Of a stretch of DNA of 43,265 bases, positions 20,941 through 23,519 are shown one piece after another. How positions within the stretch are numbered: position 1 is the stretch's first letter; every line of letters starts with the position of its first letter. A program made the translations under genes and the position numbers. Under the pieces are notes generated by a model. That model saw only the letters and a list, made by a program, of their open reading frames with translations. It was not told where the DNA came from and searched no databases. Source of the stretch: Clostridia bacterium (GTDB taxonomy: Bacteria; Bacillota; DSM-521; Neomoorellales; Neomoorellaceae); contig JASKKH010000015.1 in NCBI GenBank assembly GCA_030154265.1, positions 1 to 43,265 on the forward strand, given 5' to 3'.

Positions 20941-22362
20941 TTATTGACAATTTTTCATCCATTCTTTTACCTGGACATAAATGGCTGCTTCTAAGCGCAT
21001 CTTCTGAATTGCGCAACTAATTTTAGCTGGTTTAAGTATATCCCCGTTAGATGCAAGATTACCTGCTTTGCAACCTCCACTACAGTAAAAACGAGCCCAA
21101 CAGTGTATACATTCTTCTTGATTATACACATATGCATTGAGAAATTTTTGCCTTAAATCATCATTGGTAATTCCTTCGTTCACATTACCTATACAGTAGT
21201 CTTTCTTACCTACTAGTTGGTGACAGGGATATAGTTCTCCCATAGGCGTCACTGCAAGATAGTTCGTACCAGCTCCACAGCCTGTTAATCTTTTAATCAA
21301 GCAAGGGCCAGTTGCTGCATCAATGTTAAAATGAAAAAAGGAAAATGGTTGACCTTTCTCAGTTGCTTCAAGGTAAACCTTTGCTAAACGTTGATATTCC
21401 TTAGCAATAATAGGCAAATCTTCCTCTTTAATAGCATATTCCATCTCTGGTGCTGCAACAACTGGTTCCAAAGATAGGTAACGGAATCCTAATTCAACCA
21501 TATGTAGAATATCACTTGCAAAATCTAAGTTTTGGTGTGTATAGGTACCACGTACCCAGTAATCTTCGTGATTTTGCAATTCTACGAAATGCTGCTCTTT
21601 TGGCACAATACGTTCATATGTCCCTTGCCCCCTAATATCCTTTCGATTAAAATCGTGAACCTGTTGACGGCCGTCCAAGCTTAAAATAACGCTTATTTTA
21701 TTATCTATAAGATATTTTTCTATCTCTGAATTTAATCCCAATCCATTAGTTGTAAGTGTAAAACTTATTTTTTTACCAGTCGCTGCTGCTTTAGCTCGTC
21801 CGTACCTAACTAACTCCCTAACCAGGTCAAAATTTAGTAAAGGTTCCCCTCCAAAAAAGTCAACTTCAACTCGGGGGCGATTGCCTGATTCATTAAATAA
21901 TAAATCTAATGCCTTTTTTCCCACTTCTTTACTCATAAGCCCACGTTCTCCACCAAAGGGACCTCCATCGGCAAAGCAATAACGGCAGCACATATTACAT
22001 TCATGGGCAACATGGAGACAAAGTGCTTGTAATGTTGGTTTAGGAGGACAATATGATTTTCCTACTATATCTTCATTAAATAAGGTACCCTCCTGCTGTT
22101 TTGCAGCTAACTCCTGGCAAACTTCATTTACCGTTTCTGCTCCCAGTAAATTAGTGGACCTTGGTAAGGCATTTAACCAACTATCCTCATTAAGTACAGT
22201 ACATTCATTGTTAGTCTTTAATTCTTTTAAAACTGTTTCTAAAGCTTCATCAATAATGTGAATTGACCCGCTATTTACATCTAATAACAGGTTAAGGTCA
22301 TTATATTTGAACCAATGGATATCCCCCTGCCAATCCACTTTACTAAGATTTAGAGTTTTCAA
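20941..22362 (-). CDS. scfB: Radical SAM SPASM maturase of the SCIFF peptide
   Basis: The enzyme is expected to install a sulfur-to-alpha-carbon thioether in the SCIFF precursor encoded just upstream. The 473-residue product has an N-terminal peptide-recognition region (1-100), the radical-SAM cluster motif C122-x3-C126-x2-C129 (CNMCCRYC) followed by FADGGPFGG, a GGEPLLN segment, and a C-terminal SPASM region with GCGAGTNYLAV, YPCHQLVG and CIHCWARFYCSGGC for two auxiliary iron-sulfur clusters. It starts at TTG behind GGGGTGA. A hairpin lies between it and the precursor gene, so its expression may be lower than that of the peptide. The precursor beside it supports the family call strongly. Confidence 0.94.
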   Translation of the reverse strand: MKTLNLSKVDWQGDIHWFKYNDLNLLLDVNSGSIHIIDEALETVLKELKTNNECTVLNEDSWLNALPRSTNLLGAETVNEVCQELAAKQQEGTLFNEDIVGKSYCPPKPTLQALCLHVAHECNMCCRYCFADGGPFGGERGLMSKEVGKKALDLLFNESGNRPRVEVDFFGGEPLLNFDLVRELVRYGRAKAAATGKKISFTLTTNGLGLNSEIEKYLIDNKISVILSLDGRQQVHDFNRKDIRGQGTYERIVPKEQHFVELQNHEDYWVRGTYTHQNLDFASDILHMVELGFRYLSLEPVVAAPEMEYAIKEEDLPIIAKEYQRLAKVYLEATEKGQPFSFFHFNIDAATGPCLIKRLTGCGAGTNYLAVTPMGELYPCHQLVGKKDYCIGNVNEGITNDDLRQKFLNAYVYNQEECIHCWARFYCSGGCKAGNLASNGDILKPAKISCAIQKMRLEAAIYVQVKEWMKNCQ

Positions 22363-22452: not shown

Positions 22453-22478
22453 AAGGCCCGACTTAAAGTCGGGCCTTA
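22453..22478 (-). terminator. Hairpin between SCIFF precursor and maturase genes
   Basis: AAGGCCCGACTT and AAGTCGGGCCTT form a perfect inverted repeat with a very short centre, starting five bases after the SCIFF stop codon. Only TTTGT follows, so it may be a leaky terminator or an RNA-stabilising end that makes precursor exceed maturase. Confidence 0.6.
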
Positions 22479-22482
22479 GAAT

Positions 22483-22629
22483 TTATTTTTTTTCTTTCCT
22501 TTCACAGGGTTGGTTACTAACGGTAATGGAAGTTTTACACGCAGATTGACAAGATACATGGCAATTACCACAGCCGCCTACTTTAACACTATCTTGCAAC
22601 CTTGGTGTAAATACTGTACGAATATGCAT
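22483..22629 (-). CDS. scfA: SCIFF ribosomally made peptide precursor, five-cysteine variant
   Basis: This 48-residue peptide begins MHIRTVFTPRLQ and has a core of GGCGNCHVSCQSACKTSITV followed by SNQPCERKEKK. It is the substrate family of the radical-SAM maturase encoded next. SCIFF stands for six cysteines in forty-five residues; here only Cys20, 23, 27, 31 and 42 are present, because the usual Cys in KTSCTV is Ile35 (codon ATT). Cys31 and Thr36, which align with the thioether-forming pair reported for the Clostridium thermocellum peptide, are kept. The ribosome site GGGGAGG is strong. The gene starts 15 bases after rpsI and probably shares its transcript. The mature product's role is unknown. 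Confidence 0.93.
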   Translation of the reverse strand: MHIRTVFTPRLQDSVKVGGCGNCHVSCQSACKTSITVSNQPCERKEKK

Positions 22630-22644
22630 ATATAAACCTCCCCT

Positions 22645-23037
22645 TTATCGTTTAGAGAATTGAGGTGCCTTACGGGCTTTCTTTAAGCCGTATTTCCTTC
22701 TTTCCTTCATTCTTGGGTCACGAGTAAGTAGTCCATTACGTTTTAATACTGGTTTCATTTCTGGATCTGCTTGTAGAAGGGCTCTTGCAATACCAAGTCT
22801 AATAGCACCAGCTTGACCTGTTGTACCACCACCGTGTACTTTGGCTATTACATCAAAACGTCCAGCCATATCTACAACATTCAATGGCTGACGGACGAGC
22901 ATCTCAAGTATTTTTTGCCCAAAATATTGGTCAAGGGGGCGGTTGTTAACCAACACCCGGCCCTCACCAGGTACTAGACGAACACGAGCCACTGCGTTTT
23001 TACGCCGACCAGTACCATAAAATTGTACCTGGGCCAC
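22645..23037 (-). CDS. rpsI: Ribosomal protein S9
   Basis: S9 (130 residues) belongs to the head of the 30S subunit, and its basic C-terminal tail reaches the anticodon stem of P-site tRNA. The opening [18 protein letters not shown], the [19 protein letters not shown] loop region and the terminal FSKR are all present. It forms the usual L13-S9 pair, 20 bases behind rplM, and the SCIFF precursor gene follows it closely, which is the unusual point. Confidence 0.98.
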
Positions 23038-23057: not shown

Positions 23058-23489
23058 TTACTTAATCTCCCATACTTCTGGTTGTTGAGCCTGGTGTGGG
23101 TGACTACCACCACGATATACCTTTAATTTCTTAAAAACTTTACGGCCCAAACTATTATGAGGAATCATCCCTTTAACAGCTTTTTCAATAGCACGTTCCG
23201 GGAATTTCTCTAAAAGTCTATCGTATCTCATTACTTTCAATCCACCGGGGTATCCACTATGACGAATATACTTTTTCTGGTAAAGTTTTTTACCAGTAAG
23301 ATGTACCTTTTCAGCATTAATAATAATTACGTGATCGCCACTATCCACATGGGGGGTATAAATAGGTTTGTGTTTCCCTCTAAGTAGACGAGCTGCCTCT
23401 GTAGCAACGCGTCCCAGGGTTTTACCAGCGGCATCTATAACATACCACTTACGCTCAACCTCATGTGGTTTGGCCATGTAGGTTCTCAT
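23058..23489 (-). CDS. rplM: Ribosomal protein L13
   Basis: L13 is an early-assembling 50S protein. The ATG at 23489 is preferred because GGAGGG lies six bases upstream; a start ten codons further 5' has no such site. The product has 143 residues with [37 protein letters not shown] and [10 protein letters not shown] typical of the family. A good promoter lies directly upstream at 23520-23548, making L13-S9-SCIFF a likely separate transcription unit. Confidence 0.98.
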
Positions 23490-23519
23490 TTTTTCCCTCC
23501 TGTTCCTATCAACAGTCAT

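Follow-up and report, generated by a model that had tools for sequence, protein, structure and literature searches.

The SCIFF family of peptides takes its name from six cysteines within some 45 residues. The 43,265-nucleotide stretch of clostridial DNA that we analyzed (hereafter, "the window") encodes a precursor of this kind with five, which raises the question of whether such a peptide is still an ordinary substrate of its maturase and, if so, whether the missing cysteine ever lay inside the crosslink. An earlier note on the window had described a 48-residue SCIFF peptide with cysteines at 20, 23, 27, 31 and 42 and an isoleucine, encoded by ATT, at residue 35. It placed the lost cysteine between the thioether donor and acceptor and suggested that this cysteine is not needed for crosslinking.

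A five-cysteine precursor beside an intact maturase

The description of the peptide was borne out by the list of open reading frames, by the sequence and by the family model TIGR03973. The features of the locus are as follows.

22483..22629, minus strand: scfA, five-cysteine SCIFF precursor peptide, 48 residues (open reading frame list; TIGR03973, 71.2 bits, cut-off 50)
22570..22572, minus strand: Cys20 codon, equivalent to Cys21 of CteA (sequence; role in CteA/CteB from PMC8326336, PMC6231123)
22537..22539, minus strand: Cys31 codon, expected thioether donor, equivalent to Cys32 of CteA (sequence; donor role from PMC8326336)
22531..22533, minus strand: Thr33 codon, equivalent to Thr34 of CteA, expected acceptor under the 2019 assignment (invariant in 224/224 peptides)
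22525..22527, minus strand: Ile35 codon, ATT (plus strand AAT), where most SCIFF peptides have Cys (Ile in 17/17 of the family; codons ATT/ATC/ATA)
22522..22524, minus strand: Thr36 codon, equivalent to Thr37 of CteA, acceptor under the 2016/2017 assignment (224 peptides: Thr 214, Gly 10)
22453..22477, minus strand: GC-rich hairpin in the scfA-scfB interval, just past the scfA stop (11-pair stem)
20941..22362, minus strand: scfB, SCIFF maturase, radical SAM/SPASM enzyme (TIGR03974, 572 bits, cut-off 425; CteB alignment; 12 conserved Cys)
22645..23037, minus strand: rpsI (S9), immediately upstream of scfA (NCBIfam; same neighbor in Moorellaceae loci where this region is covered)
23058..23519, minus strand: rplM (L13), upstream of rpsI (read as L13 from sequence; synteny in family loci)

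The scfA reading frame translates as MHIRTVFTPRLQDSVKVGGCGNCHVSCQSACKTSITVSNQPCERKEKK, and a GGGGAGG-like ribosome site can be read 5' of its ATG. As its match to TIGR03973 (NCBIfam; E 4.8e-20, residues 2-43) lies above the cut-off, it is not a chance reading frame. The curated model accepts the peptide with five cysteines, a lack shared with other genomes of the phylum (see below), and by the count that names the family the window scfA is a five-cysteine variant and not a typical member. It is present in a single copy, and a search of its own genome found no second SCIFF copy with Cys at residue 35. The expected donor cysteine and both candidate acceptor threonines of the known crosslink are present (Cys31, Thr33 and Thr36). 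Judged by its sequence, scfA is a genuine gene for a small crosslinked peptide, the crosslink itself being expected from CteA, and the mature product is predicted by analogy to carry the radical non-alpha thioether that marks ranthipeptides.

The maturase gene, scfB, is the next gene after scfA and is intact. Its product aligns with CteB (PDB 5WGG, 5WHY) over residues 15-467, a full-length alignment in the case of 5WGG, and has both the radical SAM CX3CX2C motif and the SPASM cluster cysteines; it also carries Cys in each of the 12 columns where 80% or more of the maturases do. The order truA-rplM-rpsI-scfA-scfB is common to the loci of the window's family and was not seen among the loci of other families examined. 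The hairpin 3' of scfA (GGCCCGAC...GTCGGGCC, with a short run of T after it) is conserved in 12 Moorellaceae loci with a consensus of 10 pairs; its stem varies so little that there is hardly any covariation. It was not seen in three further loci (L031, L039, L041), and Rfam gave no near-gathering score at this position. The hairpin is terminator- or attenuator-like in form and may serve as a partial terminator, so that more precursor than enzyme is made.

Fixation and recurrence of the loss

Moorella and Thermanaeromonas are members of the same family as the window's genome, and residue 35 is isoleucine in all 17 of the sampled SCIFF genomes of this family (ATT in 12, ATC in 3, ATA in 2); 13 of the 17 peptides have an identical 23-residue core. 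Because the window comes from a single draft assembly, a base-calling error, a pseudogene or local decay might be suspected. However, independent genomes of the family carry the isoleucine by different codons, and the frame, leader, other cysteines and maturase of the window are intact. The relatives with differing Ile35 codons refute sequencing error and a pseudogene, and we give explanations of this sort virtually no credence. Constancy of the residue amid synonymous codon turnover points instead to selection for isoleucine, and Ile35, far from being an error or a one-off, is fixed across the whole Moorella family. Two near-complete genomes, G002 from this family and G119 from family f23, have no SCIFF match, so even a family with SCIFF in nearly all its members can include genomes that have lost it.

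A phylum-wide sample of 398 genomes contained SCIFF in 313. Residue 35 was searched with one pattern for any non-xG codon and another for VG codons (Arg, Gly and AGY-encoded Ser), both requiring a CQSACKTS context. With the former, the residue was not Cys in 24 of the 313 SCIFF genomes and was always Ile or Leu: 14 genomes came from the window's family (all of its SCIFF genomes in the sample; Ile), two from a second family of the order, seven from f23 and one from f76 (all Leu). The latter found no Arg, Gly or AGY-Ser in the 398 genomes. Outside the window's family, residue 35 was not Cys in 10 of 299 genomes and was Cys in about 97%. The earlier note had held that its reading would fail if this cysteine were commonly absent, which is true in part: the cysteine is missing from 24 of 313 genomes and its absence is fixed in certain families, but most SCIFF genomes have it.

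Among 84,980 named genomes, 40 contigs had a residue other than Cys, mostly Ile or Leu; Val, Ala, Ser, Asn and a single Glu also occurred, mainly in Oscillospiraceae and Defluviitaleaceae bins. In a conservation set of 224 peptides (223 genomes, 101 family codes), the counts were Cys 197, Ile 17 and Leu 10. Leu35 outside the window's family is encoded by six codons, and the use of three codons for Ile and six for Leu argues that the residue is kept by selection. For covariation between Ser38 and the loss of Cys35, there were too few independent pairs.

The other five SCIFF cysteines are almost never lost. They were in register in 237 of 240 genomes searched, with a nearly universal CQSACKTS context; the exceptions were a single extra residue between the first and second cysteines (G152), a donor Cys replaced by Ser (G085), and a weak match that is no SCIFF (G144). 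In G085 (locus L142, 1498-1626), the expected donor is Ser (CQSASKTSCSIVNQKCEQC, codon AGC), Thr33 and the sixth cysteine are kept, and a maturase adjoins; candidate readings for this single genome are error, decay or another donor. Another genome, G276, has two SCIFF cores (L171 and L172), the second apparently the same DNA as in G118 from another family and probably assembly contamination.

When mapped on a tree of 98 maturases, the presence or absence of this Cys requires at least 8 changes; starred branches alone force only 3, and several deep forks are poorly supported. Shuffled labels require 32.6, so the trait is clade-wise but recurrent. A second tree of 51 rows, used for the AU test, agrees on recurrence, and a single clade for all Ile and Leu rows was rejected (p-AU 0.008). 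The cysteine was therefore also lost in lineages outside the Moorella family, and these are ecologically different groups. Non-Cys peptides do go with related maturases, a point that the earlier note had proposed to check, but they fall into several clusters; its picture of a family "so invariant" at this site does not hold, the window gene being one of many such variants. Three non-Cys SCIFF/maturase pairs (L089, L102, L113) lie on contigs labelled Deltaproteobacteria and Armatimonadetes. The L089 and L102 maturases group with Desulfotomaculum-like maturases, which suggests misbinning or transfer, and L113 is very divergent.

Crosslink geometry and the sixth cysteine

Two published assignments of the crosslink disagree. 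According to reviews (PMC8326336, PMC8172795), two studies in 2016-2017 assigned Cys32-Thr37 in vitro for Tte1186a and CteA, and Hudson et al. 2019, who co-expressed CteA with CteB in E. coli, found the thioether to run from Cys32 to the C-gamma of Thr34; Thr37 in vitro and Thr34 in vivo have still to be reconciled. Transferred to the window peptide, the two pairs become Cys31-Thr36 and Cys31-Thr33, and residue 35 falls outside the second ring. The placement of the lost cysteine "between donor and acceptor" in the earlier note rests on the first assignment and is probably outdated, even though Cys31 and Thr36 are, as it said, both kept in the window peptide.

The search pattern behind the 224 peptides fixed five cysteines, Ala30 and Lys32, so that their conservation is partly by construction, and left Thr33, Ser34 and Thr36 unconstrained. 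Thr33 and Ser34 are invariant (224/224). Cys31 is invariant as well in this set, where the pattern required it. Thr36 is Thr in 214 peptides and Gly in 10, the latter spread over 7 families, and is kept in all Ile/Leu lineages. Three Gly36-type loci (L007, L017, L074) have an adjacent maturase, and the Gly36-type maturases in the tree fall in one well-supported clade, which may thus reflect one event; a shift of acceptor limited to that clade could also account for these peptides. Replacement of Thr36 by Gly (or Ser) within one maturase clade was seen in L007, L017, L074, L092, L098, L103, L116 and L117, some members of which also lack the sixth cysteine (Asn or Ser). Overall, the residue pattern favors Thr33 as the acceptor, in agreement with the 2019 reassignment. 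With Thr33 as acceptor, the lost cysteine would never have lain inside the ring, which is probably why it is dispensable. The conclusion of the earlier note that it is not needed holds, in that whole families without Cys35 keep a SCIFF/maturase pair, the adjacent maturase with its conserved cysteines.

We consider it quite probable that scfA encodes an ordinary functional SCIFF (ranthipeptide) precursor in which the sixth cysteine was replaced by Ile in the ancestor of Moorellaceae, with a Cys31-Thr33 crosslink and residue 35 outside the ring. The RRE domain of CteB holds the leader, and CteA Cys21 contacts an open auxiliary cluster (PMC8326336, PMC6231123). By analogy, the window leader would dock on the corresponding RRE domain of the CteB-like enzyme encoded next to it, where Cys20 may touch the auxiliary cluster, and the enzyme would join the Cys31 sulphur to the Thr33 C-gamma. 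Residue 35, unused in the reaction, would be free to change. From the retention of an aliphatic Ile or Leu in most free-living lineages, we infer a role in packing or in the function of the product rather than in the chemistry.

If the ring were instead Cys31-Thr36, residue 35 would lie inside it, and the loss would show that an in-ring cysteine is dispensable. Both in vitro studies and the retention of Thr36 in every Ile/Leu lineage speak for this geometry; we regard it as unlikely, given the in vivo reassignment to Thr34 and a Thr36 that gives way to Gly in 7 families, at loci with an adjacent maturase among them, while Thr33 never varies. The sixth cysteine might also have a second job (a disulphide, a metal ligand, a second thioether or an attachment), which would make the five-cysteine product functionally distinct, its free thiols (at 20, 23, 27 and 42) being even in number. 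That about 97% of SCIFF genomes in other families retain this cysteine does indicate selection on it there, one review does not settle whether further SCIFF cysteines take part in bonds (PMC8326336), and after one thioether a six-cysteine peptide would have five thiols versus four in a five-cysteine one. However, the losses occur in ecologically different groups, and a descriptive scan of maturase columns tied no change to the loss of Cys35, the differences between Cys and Ile/Leu lineages being confounded by kinship. A second job is therefore possible but doubtful. An extension of this idea, that five-cysteine SCIFFs form a distinct functional class whose product was altered by the loss of the odd thiol (e.g., in its disulphide or metal state), seems to us rather improbable; if true, what the free cysteines do in a very widespread clostridial peptide would emerge from a comparison of the two natural classes.

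Known relatives and significance

CteA (thermocellin, from Clostridium thermocellum) and Tte1186a (Caldanaerobacter) share with the window peptide the family model, the cysteine spacing, the QSACKTS-x-TV core, the expected donor cysteine, both candidate acceptor threonines and an adjacent homologous maturase. The window peptide differs in having five cysteines rather than six, with Ile for the fifth in order (CteA Cys36), and in Ser38, where Gly is commoner. The SCIFFs of Moorella thermoacetica, M. mulderi, M. stamsii and Thermanaeromonas resemble it in Ile35, core and locus, and only leader and tail differ. Desulfovirgula thermocuniculi, Peptococcaceae SCADC1_2_3 and family f23 have lost the same cysteine to an aliphatic residue, but theirs is Leu, followed mostly by TVG rather than TVS, and their maturases occupy separate places in the tree. 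We found no paper naming SCIFF together with Moorella in a search that did not cover the original SCIFF papers (Hudson 2019, Bruender 2016, Grove 2017, Haft and Basu 2011). The five-cysteine gene is a variant of a known RiPP family, and its novelty could be overstated.

SCIFF occurs in 313 of the 398 sampled genomes of the phylum, yet its function is unsettled and its two published crosslink assignments conflict. Variants that lose Cys35 or Thr36, but never Thr33 and never Cys31 (one genome apart), constitute independent evolutionary evidence on the residues that the enzyme requires. The Thr36-to-Gly clade offers natural substrates for separating the two acceptor assignments, and together the natural Cys35 and Thr36 variants are ready-made substrates for settling where the crosslink lies.
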